A stretch of 31,531 nt of DNA, taken from IMG/VR virus record IMGVR_UViG_3300025889_000572, positions 1-31,531 of that record; one strand, given 5' to 3'. The notes under the pieces are model-generated. The model searched no databases and was not told the origin of the DNA. It saw nothing but the letters and a program-made list of their open reading frames with translations. Positions 9,187 through 31,501 of the stretch are shown in pieces. The stretch comes from a virus. Within the stretch, counting starts at the first letter, position 1, and every line of letters starts with the position of its first letter. Made by a program: the position numbers and the translations under genes.

Positions 9187-12100
9187 ATGCCCGTATCAGA
9201 AGTTCGCGTTCCTGACGGAAGGGTATTTGAAATATCTCACCCAGAAGGTGCCAGCAAAGAAGAGATATTCGCCTTTGCAGAGTATCAGTATCTTCAGTTT
9301 GAAGAGCCTCCAGAGAGGACGATGCCGGTTGCTCCCCCTGTCGAGGAGGAGGAAGATACTGGCATGCTCTCCGATATTGCGGAGTTCGGCCAGCGGACTC
9401 TTGGGGCGGCAGGCAGAATACTGGGTCAAGCCCCGGCTGGCTTGCAGTCTATGTTCCGCGAGGGCATGGAAGAAGACGAGGAGCTTGTCGAGCGCAATCG
9501 CGCCATAGAAGAAAGCATCCGGAGCGGCCTCGGCTATGACGATGAGTATGACGACTCAACCCTTGGGCTAGCCGCAGATGTCACCGGATCAGTACTGGGC
9601 TTTGGCGGCACCACTTTAGCCGGCGCGGCTTTGGGCAGTGTTGTTCCGGGCGTCGGCACGCTTGTCGGGGGCGTGCTGGGCTTGGGTTCGGGTATATTGC
9701 TGGGTGCAGGATCAAATGTGGCTCGCGGCATGGAAGAAGCGGCGAGGCAGGTTGAGCGCGGCGAAATTGTTAGCGATGCGGACTACGAGGCGGCAAGTAC
9801 AAGACTGGCGGCGATTGGCGCCTCCGAAGGACTGCCGTTTATTGGCCCCACGTTCAGAGTATTGCGCCGTATATCAGGAGCCGCGGCTAAAAACCCCAAG
9901 GCGGTAGAGACGCTGGGGGATTATATTCGTAGTGCGGCTTTGCAGGGCACGGAGGAGGCGGCTCAGGAAGCGCTTGCCGGTATAGCCACAGATGCTGTAC
10001 TAAAAGAATACATCAACCCAGACATAGAGATTGGTGACTCGCTCGGTATTGACCTAGTTGCAGGCGGCACGGCGGGAGCGCTTTTTGACGTGGCGATCAA
10101 TCTTGCGACCCGCAGAAGGCGAGCGCCCACCGCTGTAGATGAGGAAATCAAGCCGTTCCGAGAGGAGCTGATTGCTGAGGAGGCGGCGCTACGCGAAAAC
10201 ATTGAGTCCTCTGAGGAGGCAAGGCGCGAGCGGATGGGCGAGCTTGCCCGTATGCCAGTAATTCCCGCCGAAACGGGCGAAGTAATACTTCCTGAGCTGT
10301 TAGAGGCAGGCAGGGCGCTTGTTGAGCCATCACCAGCCGAGATGAAGGTGCTGGAAAAGCGCCGGACAGGGGAAGAGTTGACAAGCGCCGAAAGGCGCAT
10401 CCTGAGAGAATACAAACAGCGCGTCCCTGACGCCGATGCATACAATGAGATTGCTAGACGGGTTGTGCGCCAAATGGGCGATCAATTCCCCGTTGAGCCA
10501 GAGTTTTATCTAGACGATCAAGTTGACGGCATGCCCGGAATGGTGGCCATCAGAGACGGTAGCGGCAGGATGTATGGCTCTCCTCTCCGCGCAGATATGG
10601 CCCCCAAGCTACAGCCTGCTGTCGCCGCGCTCAACGCACAGACCGTTGAAGAAAACATATTCCAAAGCAACCGAACGGCAATCGCCGAGTCCAAAGAGCA
10701 GTACTCGCCAGATCAAATTCAAACACTCCAGCGGCTTGGCCGCATAGCGCTTGGGCCAGAGTCCCTTTCGTATTCGTCAGAGGCCGCAGACTATGCTGGC
10801 GGCACTACGGTTGAGAATGGGTTTATCCCGCATCTCTCGGCAGAAAAGGCGCTTGAGGCAAATATACCCCGAAGCAAGCAGACCGTCTCCCAGCGCATCA
10901 ACATCCGCCGCCTTAAAGAAGGCAAAAGCCCCACAAGGAGATTTGCCCTAAGCGAAATAAGGCGGGAGATCGGCAAAGATGTTGGACGGCTGGCAGAATA
11001 TGAGGCAGGCGCGTTTGACGTAGACACGTTCAGAGCACTGCCGATGCCGGTGCAGGGCAAATTTGCCGTTGTCCCAGAGCGCATGAACGCTAACGGCGTT
11101 ATGGAAGCGTCGGGAGAAACGCTGTTTGATCGCCCCCCAACAAAAGCAGAAAGGCAGGCGGCAAGGGAGGCAGGCAGGAGTATTCCAGCGCGGGTGCCAT
11201 TTCAGTCCGCTCAGGATGCGGCTAACTTTGCGAGAGAGGCAAATCTTGCGAAAGGCGGCGCATACATCCCAAGCCAAGAAATTATGGGCGACCCTGACTT
11301 CAGTATTGAAAAGATACAGGAGTTGCTTGACGGGAAAAACATATCCTCCGACATTAACTCGCCAGAAATCAAGGCGCTTGCCTCGCGGTTTACTGGCAAC
11401 AAGTTAAGAAAAGACCAAACGATTGGCGATATGACCGCTGGTGAGCGGCAGTTGTTTTACCAGAAATTGCGCCAACTACCCCGATTCACTTCTCCCACCA
11501 AGATCCCTTTATTTAAACTGCGAGCCAGACCGACCGCAGAGCCAATTGTGGAAGAGCAGGCCCAAACTGAAGTGCTCGGGTTGCCATCACCGGCAGTCCC
11601 GCAGGGGATGGATGCGGCCACAAAGGGCATGCTGGAGCGTGCCCTTGAGTCCAGACTAAGGCAACTTGGCCTGACAGATTACAAGACAATGGTCACGAAC
11701 ACACTGAAGGCGGTTGCTCGGGACGCGGACGGCAACGTCTATATGCGTAGCCTGCCAGAAGATCAGGCCGCAGGCGCTCTTGCTGAGGGCGGTATCAGTG
11801 TGGACGGCGCTCGCGTTATCCAAATTGCTGTTGACAACATCATGGCAAGAAAGGTCAAGCCCGATGACCTTGAGGCGGCTGTGGTCGATGTGCTCAACCA
11901 TGAAGTGGTTCACGCTCTCCGCGAGCTTGATGTCATTACGGAGCAAGAGCTACGCTTGTTACAGAGGCTTTCTTCTCGCTACCGCAAGACATCCACCGGA
12001 CAGACCTACGCCGACTGGGCGATTGAAACATATGGCGATACAGAATCAGACGTAAACATCGCCGAAGAAGCAATCGCAGAGATGATTCGAGATGCTATTT

Positions 12101-15100
12101 CAGGGCGCGTCATTATTGACAATAAGCCAGCAGTAGTATCAGGCAAGCCACGGTCAATCATCAACAAGATCATCAAGTTCTTCAAAGGTCTGATTGGCGT
12201 AGCGCAGGATGTTGATCCCGACTACACGTCCTTCACTCAGTTCATGAATGATCTTGAGTCGGGCCAGATCGGAGCGAGAGAAAGGGGGCCAATTAGGACT
12301 CTGTACAGGCTAGAGCGGGGAACGGGCCAGTTTATCGACCGGCCAGCGCCATTGCGCACTCAAAGGCAGGTGGAGACCTATGAGATTGAGACCCCGACAG
12401 GCCGCACCGTTATTGAAACAGACTCCCCCCAAGCGGCTGAAAGAGCGGCTGAGGCGATGGGTGGCACTGCCACGCAAACTGCGCGAGCGGGTGATCTCAT
12501 GGAGGAGGCCGGACTTGGCGACATGATGCTGAGTCGTCGTGCCGACATGAAGCATGGAATTCCCAGAGAGTACATTGTCTCGTCGAAGGGGCAAGTGTCT
12601 GGCAAGCCGGCACTGCCAAAGGCAATTAACCCCAACAACGGCGAGGCTCAGGCCCAGAAGCTGGCTGAGCTGGCAGAGCGGCACCCAGACCCGCTAGCCA
12701 GCAAGGCCGCATGGCTTAAATTTGAGCGCGACCTTCTAGGTGACAATGAAACCCCGTCAGCGCCAACAGGGTTAATCGACCTGTACAACGACATGGATTC
12801 TTGGGTTGACAGGCACGAACAGCTCACCCCAGAACAACTCACCGCCGCAGGCGAGGGGTTTGAGCTGGTGGAGGATATGAGCAAAGCCTATGAAAGCGGC
12901 GATGCCACCGTGGACACGACAGGAAAGTTGATGCTGTGGGGCATGCTGTCCCGAATGCTGTCAGCGCACCCACATGAATCTGCGTTTCTTGATGCCGCTG
13001 TAGACCGGAAGCTATCTGAATTTATTAAAAGAGCAACCGAGCGGGAGTGGACTCAAGCTGACATTGACGAGTATCTTGAGTGGTCTGATACGGTTATTCC
13101 GGACTTTGCTCCGTCCAAGCAAGGCACATCCAATCTCCGCGCCTTTGGCAAGACGTTCCTGCCAAAAATGTCAAAGCGCATGCCGAGCGGCAAGTCCGCC
13201 TTGGAAGAGTTGCATGACCTTATAGCTGACAAGTCTGTGCCAACAAGCGATATCCGGGCCAAGTACTACGGCTTGAATCAGGGCATGGGCATACAGAATA
13301 AAGTGCTTTCATTTGTCCTCCTCATGACCGGCAGAAAAGATGTTGTAATCCTAGACCGCATACAGATCAACTCCATGTGGGATGCCGGTCGGTTCGGGAA
13401 GTTGATATATGACGATGTGGCCAGCCTTTTTGAGGGCGCTCACGGTCTGGCAAGGTATGAAGCACTGGAGCGCTCGTTGGCGAGCAGGATACAAGGGCTT
13501 TATGACAGAATTGGTAGGCCAGAGGATGCGTCTGTTGGCCGCTATCATTGGGAGAGCTGGGTAAGAGACTCGGGTCAGGTCGTGTCTCATCCGACAATAA
13601 AGGGGCTGATTAGGGAGACTAGGGAAGATCAGCCGCTGGCCAGCTCTTATGCAGACATAGGCGCGCCAGAGGGGCGGTTCCATCAATTTGCATTTGGCTC
13701 TGTTTATGCGCGTGACGCAGACGGCACCCCGTATATCATGTACGCAGACAGTAATGGCGTCCCGTATAGGTTCGGACTAAAACGATTCAAGGACTTCTTG
13801 GATCAGATAAAAAAGCCGGCTAGCGGAGTCATTCCTGCTAAATTTAGCGTAAAATCATACAGGGACGCCGGCTACCCGTGGTATCAGTCAGAGGAAGTAA
13901 ATCGTGAAAGACTCGACCAGATCATCCAAGATTTCTCAGAAGGAGCAACGTCTACAGAGGCGGCTGTTTCAGACGCTGTTAAATCTGAAGCAGAAGCCGA
14001 TGTCTCCGGACAGCGACCTCGCGATGAAGACATCTTCGGTCAAGACCGCATCGCCTTCTCTCGCCGAGCGGCAGACAGGAATGTAGAGCAGTCAAGCAAC
14101 GAGGCTATGGCGGACGTTGCTGAGTATGTAACAGAAACAAGCCCTGATGCCGCAGGAATGGCGACAATTGAAGCAGGCCCAATGGCCTACTCAATCAACT
14201 CAGGATTCGCAGATCAAAACGGGTACGCCCCGACCTTCACCACGCCATCCCGATCTTGGTTTCAGAAGATCGTCTTCCAAGTGCAAGACAAACTAACCGA
14301 CCTCAAGTCCATAGAGGATGCGATTAACGAAAACAGAAAGGCCAGAGGGCTTCGCCCGCTCAAGGCGGCAGAAAGCGCGTACACCGGAGAGGAGACGCTT
14401 CCCGGCAAGATTGGCGAGTTTGACCGGCGATTCAAGAGCAACGAGCTGGAGCCGTTACTCAAGGATATGGCGGACAGCGATGTCACACTGGATCAGATGG
14501 ATGAGTTCTTGGTGTTGCGTCACGCGGTGGAGCGCAACGACCGTGTTCGCAAGATAAACCCAGCAATACCCGATGCAGGCTCCGGCAAGTGGGCGGGTCA
14601 GGAGCTTACTGACCAATATGTTAAGAACAAGATGTTGTCTGACTTCGGCATGAAGTGGAACGACAGCAAGGGCGAGTGGGAGGGTGGCAACGAGCGAGGC
14701 CGTACTTTGTCCAGACTGGCCTCCCGCGTTGATAAGATCAACAGCACGACGCTAGCGATTAGCCGCAAGGGCGAGTTGATCACCGAGCAGGAGCGTGAGT
14801 TTCTGGACGGCTTCTTTAAATACTACACTCCATTGCGAGGCATCGCTCAGGACGAGGACATTGCGGCGGAGACAGATGAAAGGACCGCTGGCTCTGGCGG
14901 CACACTGAGCATTGTTGGCAAGGAAGTAAAGCGCCTGATTGGCCGCAAGACTGAGGCGATATCGCCCTTAGCGACCATAGTCACAATGCGAGGCACGCAG
15001 GCGGCTAGGGCGGTCAAGAACACGTCGTTTGGCAAGCGGTTGATCAAACTGATACAAGAAAACCCAAACAATGACGTGTGGCAGTTAATATCTCCGGAAG

Positions 15101-17112
15101 ACCCTAAATACAAGACGGCGTTTGATTCGTCTTACACTTACGTCGGCCCAGACAGGTCACGATACGGCCAGAAAAAAAGCGATATATCTGGGGAGTCAGA
15201 CAAAAAGAACTGGGTCAAGCGGGTGCGGGTGGTTCAAGACCCGGTGTTTAACCCTACTGGTCAGGAGTTGTTAGGAGTAAAGGTTGACGGCCAGCAGTAC
15301 TACGTCTTCTTCCAGAATCCCGAACTTCGCAAGGCGGCAATAAACCTTGACGCCCAGAGCGTCGGATATTTGGTGGAGAAATTGAACGGGTTTACCCGCT
15401 TCATGTCATACGTCAACACCAGCCTCAACCCAGAATTTGTCATGGGTAACTTCCCTCGCGACATCGAAACAGCGATCTTCAACATAGTTGGGGAGCAGAC
15501 GATGGAGGGCGGGAAGGCGCTGGACGCGAAGGGCATCATTGGTCAGGTTCTGAAAAATACGATCCCGTCCGTCCGCACTTTCTATAAAGGATTTCGCAAC
15601 CCAGACAGCCTGTCAGCCGAGGACGCCACCAACTTCCGCGAGTTCATCACCTCTGGAACCAAAACAGACTGGTTCCACTCCCAGCCGCCAGAACAGCAAA
15701 AGAAAAACCTTGAGATGATGGCCGAGATGGCTAGGGGCACGTTCAAGGGGGGCGCCGCACAAGGGTTCAAAGCGGTCAAGGACTTTGTAGATGACAGCAA
15801 TAACGCCGTTGAAAATGGCGTGCGATTAGCCACATTTGTCGCCGCAAGGGATGCCATGATCAAGAGCGGCATGTCACGCTCGGACGCCATACAGCAGGCT
15901 TCTACGCTTGCGAAAAACCTAACCGTCAACTTCAATAGAAAGGGCAACTCTGGTCAACTGCTGAACGGCTTGTATCTCTTCTTCAACGCCTCAGTGCAGG
16001 GCACCGTCAACACAATGCGCGGCTTGAATGTGTTTGACCCCAACTCATCAAGGACAAAGCAGGCTGTTGTGGGTTCCATCATGGGGTTTGGCGCACTCAC
16101 GACGGCGATTGCCAACGCCCTGATGGGCGAGGATGAGTTTGAGAGAATACCTGACTACATCAGGGATCGAAACATCATTATCCCAGACGCGCTGTGGGGC
16201 GGAAATCCAGAGACATACTCAACCATCCCCTTGCCATACGGTTACAACGTGTTCTGGAATCTGGGGGAGAACGCCTACCTTGTCTCTGCTGGGCAGGTGT
16301 CGCCAGAGAATGCGGCGGTCAGGGCAACCAACGTCTTTCTTGGATCATTCAACCCGCTCGGGACGTCCACCAGCGAAACGTACCTTGGCTCACTGGCCAA
16401 GACCGGAACGCCGCAGTTTCTCAAGCCCGTTCTTGAGCTGGTAATGAATGAAAACTATTTTGGCTCTCCCATTTATCCCCCAGACAGTCCGTTCGGCGGT
16501 GGAGACGACCCGCTGTCACGTCGCTCTTTTTCTAACACCTCACAAGTCTGGAAGAGCATTGCAGAAACAGTCGGCACGCTGACTGGCGGCAACGAGTCCG
16601 AACCGGGGCTTATTGAAATGCCCCCGGACGCCCTGAGCTATCTACTGTCTTTCTACGGCGGAGGCGCAGGATCGTTTGCTGAAAGGACGTTCTTCAAGGT
16701 GCCAGATGCGCTGATGGACCCGACGCGGGACTTAGAGGTCAGGGATATCCCCTTTGTTCGCAGGATACGCGGCGAGGTGGACAATCGCGTGGACAGCGAG
16801 TCATTCTACGAGCGGCGAGAAACGCTACAGAGAAAAGACAGGCAGGCGAATGACAGGCTGACGGGCGCAGAGCGTATCGCCTACATCAAGGAGAATCAGG
16901 ATTACATAAAGATGCTCCCCATGCTTCAAGGAACAGAAAAGACGTTACGAGCATTGCGCAAGTCACTGAGGAACCTTGACAAATTGCAGAATGTGAGTCC
17001 CCAAAGAGCGCTTGAAATTGCCGAGCAAAAGCGGAAAATACAGGAACGTATCGATAAGACGATCGAGCGCTTCAACAAGCGGTACGATGAGGTAGTAGGA
17101 AAAACAAAATAA
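9187..17112 (+). CDS. Giant polyvalent virion protein, 2641 aa, with embedded HEVVH metallopeptidase and LPD38-like C-terminal region
   Basis: This single ORF fills a quarter of the window; ATG 9187 follows AAGGG. The N-terminal ~40 residues (VRVPDGRVFEISHPEGASKEEIFAFAEYQY) match the short beta/helix module that often opens phage internal-virion proteins. Residues ~125-175 and ~275-305 are Gly/Ala-rich and could cross a membrane. H905-E906-x-x-H909 followed by LRE, with a downstream EEAIAEMIRD helix as third-ligand candidate (near residue 960), indicates a zinc metallopeptidase. Residues ~1380-1470 and ~1480-1580 (including GRKDVVILDRIQ and VGRYHWESWV) are conserved-looking but unassigned. 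From ~2070 the NPEFVMGNFPRDIETA block and, near 2245, NFNRKG...GLYLFFNASVQGT resemble the LPD38 region of polyvalent phage proteins. The C-terminus is charged coiled coil. It is probably packaged and ejected with the DNA, like T7 gp16. Confidence 0.75.
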   Translation: MPVSEVRVPDGRVFEISHPEGASKEEIFAFAEYQYLQFEEPPERTMPVAPPVEEEEDTGMLSDIAEFGQRTLGAAGRILGQAPAGLQSMFREGMEEDEELVERNRAIEESIRSGLGYDDEYDDSTLGLAADVTGSVLGFGGTTLAGAALGSVVPGVGTLVGGVLGLGSGILLGAGSNVARGMEEAARQVERGEIVSDADYEAASTRLAAIGASEGLPFIGPTFRVLRRISGAAAKNPKAVETLGDYIRSAALQGTEEAAQEALAGIATDAVLKEYINPDIEIGDSLGIDLVAGGTAGALFDVAINLATRRRRAPTAVDEEIKPFREELIAEEAALRENIESSEEARRERMGELARMPVIPAETGEVILPELLEAGRALVEPSPAEMKVLEKRRTGEELTSAERRILREYKQRVPDADAYNEIARRVVRQMGDQFPVEPEFYLDDQVDGMPGMVAIRDGSGRMYGSPLRADMAPKLQPAVAALNAQTVEENIFQSNRTAIAESKEQYSPDQIQTLQRLGRIALGPESLSYSSEAADYAGGTTVENGFIPHLSAEKALEANIPRSKQTVSQRINIRRLKEGKSPTRRFALSEIRREIGKDVGRLAEYEAGAFDVDTFRALPMPVQGKFAVVPERMNANGVMEASGETLFDRPPTKAERQAAREAGRSIPARVPFQSAQDAANFAREANLAKGGAYIPSQEIMGDPDFSIEKIQELLDGKNISSDINSPEIKALASRFTGNKLRKDQTIGDMTAGERQLFYQKLRQLPRFTSPTKIPLFKLRARPTAEPIVEEQAQTEVLGLPSPAVPQGMDAATKGMLERALESRLRQLGLTDYKTMVTNTLKAVARDADGNVYMRSLPEDQAAGALAEGGISVDGARVIQIAVDNIMARKVKPDDLEAAVVDVLNHEVVHALRELDVITEQELRLLQRLSSRYRKTSTGQTYADWAIETYGDTESDVNIAEEAIAEMIRDAISGRVIIDNKPAVVSGKPRSIINKIIKFFKGLIGVAQDVDPDYTSFTQFMNDLESGQIGARERGPIRTLYRLERGTGQFIDRPAPLRTQRQVETYEIETPTGRTVIETDSPQAAERAAEAMGGTATQTARAGDLMEEAGLGDMMLSRRADMKHGIPREYIVSSKGQVSGKPALPKAINPNNGEAQAQKLAELAERHPDPLASKAAWLKFERDLLGDNETPSAPTGLIDLYNDMDSWVDRHEQLTPEQLTAAGEGFELVEDMSKAYESGDATVDTTGKLMLWGMLSRMLSAHPHESAFLDAAVDRKLSEFIKRATEREWTQADIDEYLEWSDTVIPDFAPSKQGTSNLRAFGKTFLPKMSKRMPSGKSALEELHDLIADKSVPTSDIRAKYYGLNQGMGIQNKVLSFVLLMTGRKDVVILDRIQINSMWDAGRFGKLIYDDVASLFEGAHGLARYEALERSLASRIQGLYDRIGRPEDASVGRYHWESWVRDSGQVVSHPTIKGLIRETREDQPLASSYADIGAPEGRFHQFAFGSVYARDADGTPYIMYADSNGVPYRFGLKRFKDFLDQIKKPASGVIPAKFSVKSYRDAGYPWYQSEEVNRERLDQIIQDFSEGATSTEAAVSDAVKSEAEADVSGQRPRDEDIFGQDRIAFSRRAADRNVEQSSNEAMADVAEYVTETSPDAAGMATIEAGPMAYSINSGFADQNGYAPTFTTPSRSWFQKIVFQVQDKLTDLKSIEDAINENRKARGLRPLKAAESAYTGEETLPGKIGEFDRRFKSNELEPLLKDMADSDVTLDQMDEFLVLRHAVERNDRVRKINPAIPDAGSGKWAGQELTDQYVKNKMLSDFGMKWNDSKGEWEGGNERGRTLSRLASRVDKINSTTLAISRKGELITEQEREFLDGFFKYYTPLRGIAQDEDIAAETDERTAGSGGTLSIVGKEVKRLIGRKTEAISPLATIVTMRGTQAARAVKNTSFGKRLIKLIQENPNNDVWQLISPEDPKYKTAFDSSYTYVGPDRSRYGQKKSDISGESDKKNWVKRVRVVQDPVFNPTGQELLGVKVDGQQYYVFFQNPELRKAAINLDAQSVGYLVEKLNGFTRFMSYVNTSLNPEFVMGNFPRDIETAIFNIVGEQTMEGGKALDAKGIIGQVLKNTIPSVRTFYKGFRNPDSLSAEDATNFREFITSGTKTDWFHSQPPEQQKKNLEMMAEMARGTFKGGAAQGFKAVKDFVDDSNNAVENGVRLATFVAARDAMIKSGMSRSDAIQQASTLAKNLTVNFNRKGNSGQLLNGLYLFFNASVQGTVNTMRGLNVFDPNSSRTKQAVVGSIMGFGALTTAIANALMGEDEFERIPDYIRDRNIIIPDALWGGNPETYSTIPLPYGYNVFWNLGENAYLVSAGQVSPENAAVRATNVFLGSFNPLGTSTSETYLGSLAKTGTPQFLKPVLELVMNENYFGSPIYPPDSPFGGGDDPLSRRSFSNTSQVWKSIAETVGTLTGGNESEPGLIEMPPDALSYLLSFYGGGAGSFAERTFFKVPDALMDPTRDLEVRDIPFVRRIRGEVDNRVDSESFYERRETLQRKDRQANDRLTGAERIAYIKENQDYIKMLPMLQGTEKTLRALRKSLRNLDKLQNVSPQRALEIAEQKRKIQERIDKTIERFNKRYDEVVGKTK

Positions 17113-26661: not shown

Positions 26662-26812
26662 TCATGATCCCCTTGCGCCTGAGAAATCGTGAGTAAGCGC
26701 CGGCCTCAAGGTCAGCGCATTTGCCTACCCCACACAAATCGGTTGATTCGTAGATAGCGGGGCAAGCGGGGGCGTGGATGCCCCCGTCCATGTCGCAGTA
26801 CTGGCAAGTCAT
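26528..26812 (-). CDS. Cys-rich small protein, 94 aa (3' half uncertain)
   Basis: ATG 26812 makes an ATGA 4-bp overlap with the stop of the Myb/TM gene. The first ~50 residues (MTCQYCDMDGGIHAPACP..., then DLCGVGKCADLEAGAYSRF) have a C-x2-C...C...C-x4-C set that suggests a small zinc-binding protein. After about residue 50 the frame overlaps the 63-aa gene and becomes Ser/Arg/Gly-rich, unlike a folded domain. Either the C-terminus is genuinely disordered or the original gene ended earlier and lost its stop by a shift. Confidence 0.45.
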   Translation of the reverse strand: MTCQYCDMDGGIHAPACPAIYESTDLCGVGKCADLEAGAYSRFLRRKGIMNGRARRLPDSSASGHADGRKIRRGCGDNAQLIGVVAKGGRLSIH

Positions 26813-27183
26813 GAGACCATCGCCAAGATCACGATCACCAATGTGGTGAATGACATCATCGCGCCAGCGCCAGCAATCAAGGTCAGCATGGGTATCTGCT
26901 GAACCATTCGCTCGGCTTCCAGCACCCGATCCAGCATAGCATCTGGCATCTCGGGCGGCTTGGGCGCAGGCTCCGCCCTTGGCGCAGGCTCCGCCTTCTT
27001 CGCAGGCGCTCGCAGGGGCAGTGACCTCTGGGTCGTCTTGCGAATGTATGTTGCCCTCCATGCGACAGCGTCCCTTGTCCTGCCTAGTGCTTGGGCAATG
27101 ACCGCCTTACTCAGTCCCTTCTCCAAACACTCCGTTAACACGGCATCATCTTCCTTAGACCACTTGGTAAAATGTCTTTCCAT
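26809..27183 (-). CDS. Myb/SANT-like DNA-binding domain with C-terminal membrane helix, 124 aa
   Basis: The start has GAGGAG 9 bases upstream. Residues ~7-48 (KWSKEDDAVLTECLEKGLSKAVIAQALGRTRDAVAWRATYI) form a Myb/SANT-like three-helix domain: a tryptophan, an acidic first helix, then the KGLS...IAxxLGRTxxAVxxR recognition helix. Residues ~52-85 form an Ala/Pro/Lys/Glu linker. Residues ~97-124 (IPMLTLIAGAGAMMSFTTLVIVILAMVS) are strongly hydrophobic, a tail-anchor type membrane helix. This predicts a DNA-binding protein held at the inner membrane. The next genes upstream and downstream are also small; one encodes a membrane protein. A role in attaching phage or host DNA to the membrane, or in membrane-linked regulation, is inference. 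Confidence 0.7.
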   Translation of the reverse strand: MERHFTKWSKEDDAVLTECLEKGLSKAVIAQALGRTRDAVAWRATYIRKTTQRSLPLRAPAKKAEPAPRAEPAPKPPEMPDAMLDRVLEAERMVQQIPMLTLIAGAGAMMSFTTLVIVILAMVS

Positions 27184-27888: not shown

Positions 27889-29358
27889 TCACCAGCGTTC
27901 ACTTGCGTGCGCTGGCGATACAAAGTTGGGTACTGGGGGCGCGTGGCCCCCGTGGATTACGCCGCCTGAGCGGACGATGGTGTCGGCACCGGACTCGGCG
28001 ATCATGCGTCGAATGCAGGGCACCGGCTCGCTGTCGAGCACCACAACCAGATTGTCGCGCTGGCCCAGTGCGTTCCAGTCATCGTCATACATCTCGCCAT
28101 CGGTGAACACGATGACCAGATCAGACTCCAGACCGTTCTGCTCAAGCCACTCGACGCCAGCGGTCATGTAGGTGCCGCCGCCGCAGGGTGCCTCAAGGTC
28201 GAGAAGGTCTGCACCGGAGTACACCTCGTCGGAGCTGTGGAACTGGTGATTAGTCCATGCAACCACAACGCCGTCACGCGGTTGGAGCGTGTCGATCAGA
28301 GACGCAGACTCAATCATGAATTGATTGAGCATATCGCGGCTGACTGATGCTGAGATGTCAACCACAATGGAGACGCGCCCGATCTGACCGATTGACGTGG
28401 GGCTGATGACGCCCAGCGTCGAGAACCGGCGGCGATGAATGCGAGACCATGTGGTCTGACCGCCAGCGCCTGCGCGGTTGAACCGATCAGCCAGCTCTGC
28501 ACGCCAGTCGGTGTCGGATGCATTGCTGGGGCGGTAGCGGTGCGAACCCTCGCGGATAGACTCGGGGAGTCGTGCAGGGTCGCGCCCGTCAGCCTCAAGC
28601 TGATCGATGCCATCGTCCACTGATGAGCGGATGTCGTGCTCATCTTCGCGAGCGGCGGCTTCCTGCTCCTCGTCGGTGCCCTCATACTCGGGCGTCAGGT
28701 GATGGTCGTGACCGGCAGGCTCAGGCAGGGAGCGCTCCCCATCGTTACTGTCTGACTTGTCAGGAGCACCATCGCTAGTGTCTGCGCTGTCTCCAGAGCC
28801 GTCCTGATTTTCTGGCTGGCTACACTCGCCAGACTGGTCGCCGCTGGGGGCGGGATTGGTCTTGGCGTCATCGTTGTCATCCTGCTTTTGGTACAGCTCA
28901 GCGTAGACCGAATCGACAATGTCATCGCGCCCGTAGTCGTCGGAGTAGCAACCCTGCGGGATAGGCTCAAAGCCCATCGCCTTGCAGTCGGAGTTGATGA
29001 CATAGTCGGCGGCGCGGTTATAGGTGCCGTGATCGAATGGCACGCTGGGTCGGAAAAACCCGCGATCCTGATACACCTTGCCGCGCTGGGGGTGCCGCAG
29101 GATTATGTGTGACACCTCATGAGCAAGCAGGAACGCCCGCTGTGAGTCTGAGTCAAGCCCGCGGAAAAACTCGGGGCTGATGTAAACATAGACGCCGTCA
29201 GTGGCGGCAGTGCCTACGGCGTCAGTCCAGATCACCTCAGTGGCGAGTAGCACGCTGTAGTGAACGGGCGCTTTAGTTTGCAGGATGATCAGCGCCGCAA
29301 TGTAGCGGCGCGAGTTGGTGAGATCAGCAGTAGGTGCGAACAGCTTCTTGGCTCGCAT
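27889..29358 (-). CDS. HExxH metallopeptidase-like domain fused to VWA domain (DUF2201-type, CobT-like), 489 aa
   Basis: ATG 29358 has GGAGG upstream, 2 bp after the MoxR gene stop. Residues ~1-150 hold a peptidase-like domain: H80-E81-x-x-H84 in LLAHEVSHIILRHPQRG, then YNRAADYVINSD (D118 as a possible third ligand). Residues ~160-255 are a very acidic Asp/Ser/Gln/Gly linker. Residues ~325-470 are a VWA domain with a full MIDAS: D334-x-S336-x-S338, T396 in GGGTYM, and D420 in FTDGE. This is the DUF2201 arrangement. VWA partners of MoxR-type ATPases recruit substrates or metal-binding targets for remodelling. It is expressed with the MoxR gene (2-bp gap), so they likely form one complex. Peptidase activity is inferred from the motif. 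Confidence 0.8.
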   Translation of the reverse strand: MRAKKLFAPTADLTNSRRYIAALIILQTKAPVHYSVLLATEVIWTDAVGTAATDGVYVYISPEFFRGLDSDSQRAFLLAHEVSHIILRHPQRGKVYQDRGFFRPSVPFDHGTYNRAADYVINSDCKAMGFEPIPQGCYSDDYGRDDIVDSVYAELYQKQDDNDDAKTNPAPSGDQSGECSQPENQDGSGDSADTSDGAPDKSDSNDGERSLPEPAGHDHHLTPEYEGTDEEQEAAAREDEHDIRSSVDDGIDQLEADGRDPARLPESIREGSHRYRPSNASDTDWRAELADRFNRAGAGGQTTWSRIHRRRFSTLGVISPTSIGQIGRVSIVVDISASVSRDMLNQFMIESASLIDTLQPRDGVVVAWTNHQFHSSDEVYSGADLLDLEAPCGGGTYMTAGVEWLEQNGLESDLVIVFTDGEMYDDDWNALGQRDNLVVVLDSEPVPCIRRMIAESGADTIVRSGGVIHGGHAPPVPNFVSPAHASERW

Positions 29359-29360
29359 GG

Positions 29361-30497
29361 TTACACCTCCATGCCGGCAGTTTGTGCCAGCGGTAAAAGA
29401 TCGTGAAACTTCTGAATGAATGCCACAGCGACACTCGACGTGAGCACCCAGCCTTGACGGGCTGAGGTGCGGAGTAGCTTAGACCCCAGCGACACCTGCA
29501 AGTCGGGACGCAGGCGCGTGACATACGCCAGTGCCGCCTCGCCGGTATCGGCATTGTGCGCGGCATTGATGGCGCGGTTTGCGGCGAGCAGTTGGTAGCC
29601 CGTTGCGTCTGGCACGTTAGCGCCAGTGGGGTCGGCGAATATGTCACGGGCAGTCGGCACCTGATCAGCCATCGCAATGTGGCGGGACAGCATGCCAGCG
29701 GCGCGGTCGCCAATGTTGGCGGCGAGCAGTGACTCGACATATGACGGCAGATCGATACCGTCAAACTCAGCCGACTCGGTGAACGCCGTCAGGTGTTGAG
29801 CGGCACGCACCAGTGAGCGCGGGGTGCAGAATGGGCCGTCCTCAGTCGGGACGCAGTCGGCGAAAAAGCCGTCATCTGCATAGGCCATCGCGCAGTCAAT
29901 CGCCAGCGGGTTGACGCCATTGTCAGCGGCCCAGTCGGCCCAGCCCTTGACATCAAACTGAAGCTCAAACACCGCGCACCGGTTGAGCAAGTGCGACAGC
30001 ATGCGGGTAGCGCCTGACTTGTCAGATGTACGGTTGCCAGTGAAACAAACGATCCAGCCGTCAGGGATGGGGTGACCGCCGATAGTGCGCTCGGCGGGGT
30101 CGAGCAAGTCGGCCAGCACCTTCTGAACATCAGCGGTTGCCTGCATCAACTCGTCGATCAGGATGATGCCGTATTCCTTGCCGGTCTCCCTGATTTTGGT
30201 GATCAGCGGCGCGACAGTGAAGGTCGTGCGCAGGTTGCCGTCCGCGTCTTTTGATGGCAGTGCGACACCAGCAATCTCAGCAGAGTCGCGGTTGGCAACG
30301 CGCTCTTGAATGAATCCAAGGTCATCAGCGGAGACGCCGACGTGCTCCGCGTACAAGTCGCGGAACCAGCCCTTAAAGTATTGAGTCTTGCCAACGCCCA
30401 CGGGGCCGATCAGACCCACGGGTTGCTGGTTACCGCTGGCCAATACCAGCGGGACGATTTTTTGAAACTCGGCGATAGTGGTTTGAATGTGTGCCAT
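29361..30497 (-). CDS. MoxR/CobS-type AAA+ ATPase, 378 aa
   Basis: ATG 30497 follows GTAGGAGGGATC. The AAA+ motifs are complete: Walker A GPVGVGKT (31-38), Walker B IILIDE (111-116), sensor 1 FTGN (152-155) and an arginine near HLLNRC (R173) as finger candidate. It has the MoxR-type layout with a long insertion between Walker A and Walker B and an ALPSKDADG loop. The C-terminal lid region is helical. MoxR ATPases act with VWA proteins as chaperone-like remodelling machines; CobS is the same type in cobalt chelatase. Here the VWA partner follows directly and a DUF3150-like gene precedes it. The phage target is unknown. Conserved Walker residues suggest it is active. Confidence 0.85.
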   Translation of the reverse strand: MAHIQTTIAEFQKIVPLVLASGNQQPVGLIGPVGVGKTQYFKGWFRDLYAEHVGVSADDLGFIQERVANRDSAEIAGVALPSKDADGNLRTTFTVAPLITKIRETGKEYGIILIDELMQATADVQKVLADLLDPAERTIGGHPIPDGWIVCFTGNRTSDKSGATRMLSHLLNRCAVFELQFDVKGWADWAADNGVNPLAIDCAMAYADDGFFADCVPTEDGPFCTPRSLVRAAQHLTAFTESAEFDGIDLPSYVESLLAANIGDRAAGMLSRHIAMADQVPTARDIFADPTGANVPDATGYQLLAANRAINAAHNADTGEAALAYVTRLRPDLQVSLGSKLLRTSARQGWVLTSSVAVAFIQKFHDLLPLAQTAGMEV

Positions 30498-30523
30498 GTG
30501 ATGATCCCTCCTACAGGATTTGA

Positions 30524-31501
30524 TTAATCGATCAGGTCAGCGAGCAGTGAGTCGCCCGTGATCACGTTAGACGCGGCGGGTGCCGCGGGTGTTGCGGTTG
30601 ATGGTGCCTTGGCGACAGCGGCCAGTGCCTTGCTGGCAGTGCCAGCGGCGCGGATCGCTTGATTGCGGCGAGTCGCGCTGTGCTTGACTTGTTCAATGTT
30701 AGGTATCGAGCCAATACGCTGGTCGATCAGGTCGGCAACCTCCAGCACGCGGGGGTCATTGTCATACCCCTCTACCATGTCGCGCAGTAGGCGTGCGTGG
30801 CGCTTGGCATTGTCGAGCAGTGACTGGTGCAGGCGCTTGCCCTCAGTCAATTGCTTTTCGACAACGTCCATATGCTTTTGAGCGCCCTCGATAGCGGCCT
30901 GCTTGGCGCCGTCCAATTGCTTGCTGAGTCGGTCGTGATGGCGCTGTGCAATGTCAGCGGCCAGACCGGCAGGCAATGCCAGACTGTCAACATTGAACAC
31001 CGGCAGTGGCTCAGGCGCTCCGATAGTGACGCGATACTTACCAGCTAACACGTCAGGATCAGGCATATCCACGTCAGACACGCGGCCTAAGTCAGCGCGG
31101 TTGCGGCTGGCGTAGTACTGGCGATAATCGGGCATGAATGCGTCGAGTGCGGCGAATGCCTCACCCTTCAGCTCGGCCAGCTTGGCGAGCACCTCCGGAA
31201 CCCGTGACACGGGCACGATGCGCTTTCCGCGCTTCTGTTGTCCCTCTTCGCAGTCGGTGAAGGGCAAGGTGTTGTCATAGAGCCAAGTGCGGATGCTGGC
31301 GAATTTGCTGTTGACCTGTTTGAGGTCGGTAGTGAGTCGGCCCAGCGCTCCGACACGGGTGCGCACCGGCACGTTGCCGTTGACTCGACACTCGGCGGCG
31401 GCGGCATCAGATGCCACGGCTGAATGCTTCATGGGGTCGGCGCGACCCAAACTAAGGTCGAGCACCATGTAATTATTGGCGATGGTTTGTTGCATATACA
31501 T
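30524..31501 (-). CDS. DUF3150-like partner of the MoxR/VWA cassette, 325 aa
   Basis: ATG 31501 has GAGGAG 9-10 bases upstream; a second ATG two codons on is possible. The N-terminal half contains GALGRLTTDLKQVNSKF and a stretch with FMPDYRQYYASRNRADLGRV. The middle has a conserved-looking KYRVTIGAPEPLPVFNVDSL segment, and the C-terminal half is a long Ala/Lys/Glu-rich coiled coil (about residues 190-260), followed by an Ala/Thr/Pro tail ending in DSLLADLID. The combination of a beta/alpha N-terminal half and long coiled coil next to a MoxR ATPase and a VWA protein matches DUF3150 proteins of phage MoxR cassettes. I cannot show sequence homology here. The gene is first in the - strand operon within the window; the promoter lies further upstream. 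Confidence 0.6.
   Translation of the reverse strand: MYMQQTIANNYMVLDLSLGRADPMKHSAVASDAAAAECRVNGNVPVRTRVGALGRLTTDLKQVNSKFASIRTWLYDNTLPFTDCEEGQQKRGKRIVPVSRVPEVLAKLAELKGEAFAALDAFMPDYRQYYASRNRADLGRVSDVDMPDPDVLAGKYRVTIGAPEPLPVFNVDSLALPAGLAADIAQRHHDRLSKQLDGAKQAAIEGAQKHMDVVEKQLTEGKRLHQSLLDNAKRHARLLRDMVEGYDNDPRVLEVADLIDQRIGSIPNIEQVKHSATRRNQAIRAAGTASKALAAVAKAPSTATPAAPAASNVITGDSLLADLID

Follow-up and report, generated by a model that had tools for sequence, protein, structure and literature searches.

We analyzed three consecutive genes, here called A, B, and C, in a linear, 31,531-bp fragment of a virus (IMG/VR record IMGVR_UViG_3300025889_000572; the whole fragment is called the window, and gene coordinates refer to it). 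They encode a DUF3150-like protein, a MoxR-type AAA+ ATPase, and a protein that joins a metallopeptidase-like domain to a VWA domain, respectively. An earlier note on this DNA had proposed that they form one cassette, and we found the same trio in 81 fetched loci, a recurrence far above chance, on plasmids as well as in phages. Our preferred reading, held with about even confidence, is that the cassette is a three-subunit AAA+ remodeling machine of mobile DNA elements (tailed phages and plasmids) with an early, non-virion target. This type of machine was known in outline and the phage B-C pair had been published before the present analysis; the new elements are the third partner, the finding that plasmids share it, with three gene orders in all, and the resulting constraint on function.

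Family hidden Markov models placed the trio in the order B-A-C in 67 loci, A-B-C in 8, and B-C-A in 6; because most of the B-A-C loci are Burkholderiales located by searching with A and a few contigs are near-duplicates, these counts are not unbiased frequencies. The bacterial search was itself seeded with closer A sequences, which biases its results towards Burkholderiales. Rare adjacency in related phages had been named beforehand as a finding that would speak against the cassette; the genes were adjacent, as A-B-C, in every one of the six close-relative contigs spanning this part of the genome. The A homolog lies downstream of C in five contigs of more distant relationship (L053-L057), and in cyanophage MinM2 the order is B-A-C, with the middle gene annotated DUF3150.

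The earlier note had spoken of a phage machine, a label that proved too narrow, as plasmids of Rhodovastum, Paraburkholderia, Cupriavidus, Variovorax, and Simplicispira carry the same trio; these are megaplasmids of Burkholderiales and one plasmid from Acetobacteraceae. Phage-derived profiles scored 126-196 bits (A), 102-144 bits (B), and 114-165 bits (C) against the plasmid proteins, MinM2 included. All 12 viral contigs retrieved with a plasmid-type A have B and 11 have C, the twelfth being cut by the contig end. Pairwise distances among the A, B, and C proteins were correlated (r = 0.95-0.97 over 42 loci; 0.94-0.96 over 23 mostly viral loci); since shared ancestry alone raises such correlations, these values indicate joint inheritance and not contact. 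The clearest exception to congruent divergence is locus L004, in which B (10001-11146) is a divergent allele, 69% identical to window B, and the flanking A (94%) and C are close to those of the window; there, the motor gene appears to have undergone exchange without its neighbors. The presence of the same trio, in shuffled order, in unrelated phages and large plasmids suggests that the DUF3150 protein is a real part of the machine.

Window A matched the Pfam DUF3150 model (PF11348) with an E-value of 0.009 and 15.8 bits, below the gathering score of 24.9, and is best described as a divergent DUF3150-like protein, not a member by Pfam's rule. The relationship proposed in the earlier note is nevertheless borne out by other members of the family. 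The A homolog in L005 matched the model at 6e-6, covering 3-249 of its 257 positions, and the one in L142 reached 27.3 bits, above the Pfam cut-off. In profile-profile comparisons (hhalign), the A family aligned with the plasmid homologs at 98% (E = 7e-14) and with the DUF3150 protein of plasmid pCAR1 (8e-92) at 83% (E = 9e-6). A search of the PDB with the predicted helical model of A returned chance-level helical matches alone (best E = 0.15). No paper in the open-access literature searched mentions DUF3150, and the link to this machine gives the family its first testable role.

The remaining features pointed out in the earlier note, namely the three consecutive genes with gaps of 26 bp (A-B) and 2 bp (B-C), the AAA+ motifs, the complete metal ion-dependent adhesion site (MIDAS), and the HExxH motif, were all confirmed, the genes lying where it had placed them (Table 1). 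B scored 22.4 bits against Pfam AAA_5, just above the cut-off of 22, and matched its PHROG family at 3.6e-48. Its residues K37, D115, E116, G154-N155, and R173, candidates for Walker A and B, sensor 1, and the arginine finger, are invariant across distant homologs, and a VWA partner gene adjoins it, as is expected of a MoxR member. Window B had no NCBIfam or CbbQ_C match and was not assigned to the named RavA-ViaA or NorQ-NorD families.

Table 1. Coordinates of the cassette and its motifs in the window
Feature	Position	Strand	Description
Gene A	30524-31501	-	325 aa, DUF3150-like; predicted model mostly long helices
Gene B	29361-30497	-	378 aa, MoxR/AAA_5-type AAA+ ATPase, PHROG 1297
Walker A of gene B	30384-30407	-	GPVGVGKT, residues 31-38
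Walker B of gene B	30150-30167	-	IILIDE, residues 111-116
Gene C	27889-29358	-	489 aa as read; DUF2201_N metallopeptidase-like domain, acidic linker, VWA domain
HExxH of gene C	29107-29121	-	HEVSH, residues 80-84
MIDAS DxSxS of gene C	28345-28359	-	DISAS, residues 334-338
Hairpin 3' of gene C	27935-27951	-	GGGGGC-N5-GCCCCC; terminator-like in relatives

C matched Pfam DUF2201_N (PF13203; 2e-25, 90.2 bits, gathering score 23.2) and DUF2201 (PF09967; 1e-8, 35.7 bits, gathering score 26.4). By its domains it is a DUF2201 protein, in which an HExxH metallopeptidase-like domain precedes a VWA domain with a complete MIDAS. Across 29 phage homologs of C, no variation was seen at H80, E81, H84, H89, D118, and N122 or at the MIDAS residues D334, S336, S338, T396, and D420. 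Of six further C proteins from N4-like or similar phages, five keep HExxH as well, and the sixth, from Littlefix, reads HLAMH with loss of the glutamate. Some plasmid and viral copies (L062, L091, L098-L100, and L148/L149) have no HExxH match, so the peptidase motif is less well conserved than the MIDAS. C belongs to PHROG 1314, a family whose label, "HNH endonuclease," has been copied into phage records; judged by domain content the label is misleading, as DUF2201 metallopeptidase-like and VWA domains do not fit it, and we flag it here for phage DUF2201 proteins in general.

One detail of window C may be a sequencing error. The gene has one extra base near 27972 (27957-27975) relative to L002, L003, L004, and the 98%-identical L042. 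This shifts the reading frame: the stop codon of the homologous genes corresponds to about 27957-27959, and beyond it window C runs on for ~26 residues that are out of frame with the family and have no homolog in the C proteins of its relatives.

A mechanistic precedent is NorQD, for which cryo-electron microscopy structures place a finger of the VWA protein in the MoxR pore, with the MIDAS probably facing the target and an ATP-driven rotation stretching a linker (PMC13036017, PMC9976466). NorQ-NorD, CbbQ-CbbO, and RavA-ViaA resemble the window pair in that a MoxR ring works with a VWA partner, probably by a common finger-in-pore principle, and differ from it in being cellular systems for metal insertion or enzyme activation. 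To our knowledge, none of them has a DUF2201 metallopeptidase domain or a DUF3150 partner. A fold search with the predicted model of C matched a NorQD chain (9qhe, E = 9.6e-4) among VWA folds. That model contains a long, acidic, low-confidence linker (166-215) and a second low-confidence loop (299-323) before the VWA domain. B and C have the parts for NorQD-like action: AAA motifs, a MIDAS, an N-terminal domain, and a long linker.

From what was observed (the domains, their intact motifs, the joint inheritance of A, B, and C, and their presence in elements without virions), we propose the following mechanism. B would form an ATP-driven ring, and C would act as the target-binding arm, its VWA domain docking on the ring and its MIDAS metal gripping the target. 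The N-terminal HExxH domain of C would bind a metal and may hold or cut the target. A would be a helical extra subunit that tunes the choice of target in the elements that have it; by analogy, A and the N-terminal metallopeptidase-like domain would together decide the target. ATP hydrolysis would then pull or twist the target; this step and the docking of the VWA domain are modeled on NorQD by homology. The target could be a complex that processes DNA in replication, recombination, or transfer, or else a host protein that the element must disarm.

The class of target is read from gene context only, which is indirect evidence. With moderate confidence, we prefer an early, non-virion target to virion assembly, because plasmids build no virion and the N4-like pair lies in the middle or replication region. 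In N4-like phages, the pair is found in the middle-gene region beside a helicase and a DNA polymerase, and gp24/25 of N4 are middle genes (PMC4193335). An A-family DNA polymerase gene lies near the pair in 16 viral loci. Neighbors of the plasmid trio include type IV secretion system and PRTRC-type genes. That this machine, third subunit included, also occurs on virion-less plasmids changes where its target should be looked for.

The earlier note had left the phage target unsettled, yet a role in virion assembly had already been proposed for the MoxR and metallopeptidase-vWA pair of group 2.2 jumbo phages, citing ATV p618/p892 (Iyer et al. 2021; Iyer and Aravind; PMC7824862). The jumbo-phage pair is like that of the window in placing a MoxR-type ATPase beside a VWA protein with an N-terminal metallopeptidase domain, and unlike it in that no DUF3150 partner was described (PMC7824862). 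As such a chaperone, the ring and the VWA-metallopeptidase would act late in infection, in the assembly or processing of head or tail proteins. The precedent is the archaeal virus ATV, which likewise has a viral MoxR ATPase, p618, stimulated by a VWA partner, p892, and in which the pair has been linked to tail development (PMC4124505); p892 differs from window C in having no peptidase domain (PMC7824862). We consider virion assembly fairly unlikely, though the most probable of the alternatives, as it would have to account for a homologous trio on plasmids, for the divergent orientation of the cassette block and the terminase genes in a relative of the window's phage, and for the middle-gene location of the N4-like pair. 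Several observations weigh against our preferred reading of an early, three-subunit machine. ATV p618 is a virion protein (PMC4124505), and four virion proteins of roseophage RPP1 are encoded near its gp24/25 homologs (PMC4193335). Furthermore, when 20 whole phage records were searched with a profile, A turned up in the four in which it was expected and in none of the 16 others.

The A-negative records include RHph_TM3_14A, slur16, and N4-like records. N4 gp24 (AAA+ ATPase) and gp25 (vWFA) and their counterparts in N4-like phages are homologous to B and C and lie adjacent or one small gene apart; unlike the window, the N4-like records searched have no recognizable DUF3150 gene anywhere. As many phages have B and C without A, the pair is the core and A a common but dispensable addition, probably a subunit. 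The earlier note had suggested that A could be an adaptor; its absence from many phages with the pair means that not all of them need it. The surroundings of B and C in phages with the pair alone were also examined for a DUF3150 gene that might be hidden or shortened. One 136-aa open reading frame (ORF) in L027 (E = 0.005) was considered and rejected, since most ORFs at comparable positions are related neither to it nor to one another, and the whole-record profile search confirmed the absence of A.

These A-less phages, together with loci that have A alone, would also fit A being merely a neighbor and not a subunit of the B-C machine. We regard this as improbable: A accompanies B and C through three different gene orders, across phages and plasmids, with congruent divergence, and even where B and C are missing it tends to keep similar company. 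DUF3150-like genes without B and C occur in Planctomycetes and Deltaproteobacteria, where another AAA ATPase is close by in 15 of 19 loci and a DUF1257 gene in 12 of 19. Two proteins from such A-only loci exceed the Pfam DUF3150 cut-off. At L064 and L121-L139 (Nitrospirota, Planctomycetes, and Deltaproteobacteria), the DUF3150-like gene sits beside a different AAA ATPase with DUF1257, joined in L064 by DUF2997.

More tentatively, and with somewhat less than even confidence, DUF3150 may be a general subunit of AAA+ remodeling machines, among which MoxR, DUF3150, and the metallopeptidase-VWA protein would make up a distinct three-component machine, common to phages and conjugative plasmids for a shared early step of establishment in the cell. 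If this is true, a DUF3150 gene beside at least three AAA+ types (the DUF2201-linked MoxR, a CobS-like ATPase, and the AAA ATPase with DUF1257) would mark such machines.

The CobS-like type is that of pCAR1. Its ORF101-103 region has, like the window, an AAA ATPase, a DUF3150 protein, and an HExxH-containing VWA protein in a row; unlike the window, its B is CobS-like and its C is not a DUF2201 protein, and the similarity to the window proteins is remote, the links resting on profile comparisons of modest strength. Genes of this region were reported to be conserved in R478, Rts1, SXT, and R391 in a 2009 transcriptome paper, which also found strong transcription of the trio operon and suggested a role in transfer (PMC2642839). 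Together, the plasmid and phage copies point to tractable laboratory systems, namely N4 in E. coli K-12 and pCAR1 in P. putida KT2440.

The CobS-like character of pCAR1 B (2.8e-36 against TIGR01650, below the cut-off) raises the question of CobST-like chelation, in which B and C would help a host CobN insert cobalt and so raise cobalamin levels, as has been proposed for viral CobST (PMC8651126). However, window B and C matched no CobS or CobT model in Pfam or NCBIfam, and CobN was present in none of 17 phage records, with a host CobN being possible. These two results make this explanation very improbable. We also know of no HExxH motif or DUF3150 partner in CobST.

Counter-defense or host takeover, in which the machine would unfold or cleave host defense or regulatory proteins met by phages and plasmids alike, is in part a special case of our preferred early-target reading. 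It would suit a trio common to both kinds of element, an HExxH that is nearly always intact, and the situation in EcP1, where the pair is immediately followed by a Lar-like restriction-alleviation gene. We nevertheless rate it as unlikely, there being no link to a particular defense system. PADLOC returned no match for the cassette; it lists defense proteins and would not list counter-defense. NCBIfam did not name the cassette proteins either.

The earlier note had also placed the cassette at the head of an operon with at least six further small genes, which now seems doubtful. The hairpin listed in Table 1 is the sole perfect copy of its sequence in the window and lies directly 3' of C in most close relatives. 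In six of these (L002, L003, L006, L008, L049, and L050), a T-rich tract follows it immediately, which makes it a likely terminator; in the window, ~65 bp separate the hairpin from its T-tract. With a terminator-like hairpin after C, A-B-C is probably its own transcription unit and not simply the head of a nine-gene operon. A promoter scan of the window region gave fewer matches than shuffled sequences.

The window record stops 30 bp upstream of A, and its setting was read from a related contig of 58,289 bp (G002, IMGVR_UViG_3300030708_001784). The ends of G002 overlap by 98-99 bp and its similarity to the window continues across the end junction, so that it looks like a complete circular map and probably represents the whole genome of a phage related to that of the window, which spans about half of G002. 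In G002, the trio block and the terminase genes are transcribed divergently, and two small ORFs on the strand of the trio separate A from the terminase genes.

Elsewhere, the window encodes, at 9187-17112 (+), a protein of 2,641 aa that carries an LPD38 polyvalent-protein domain. Its other products include head and ejection proteins, a primase/helicase, an exonuclease, and a Sak-like annealing protein. A GcrA-like protein (E = 6e-5, below the cut-off) with a hydrophobic C-terminal stretch is encoded at 26809-27183 (-). As GcrA is alphaproteobacterial, this protein hints at the host. A similar layout recurs in L003, L005, L006, L050, and L051.

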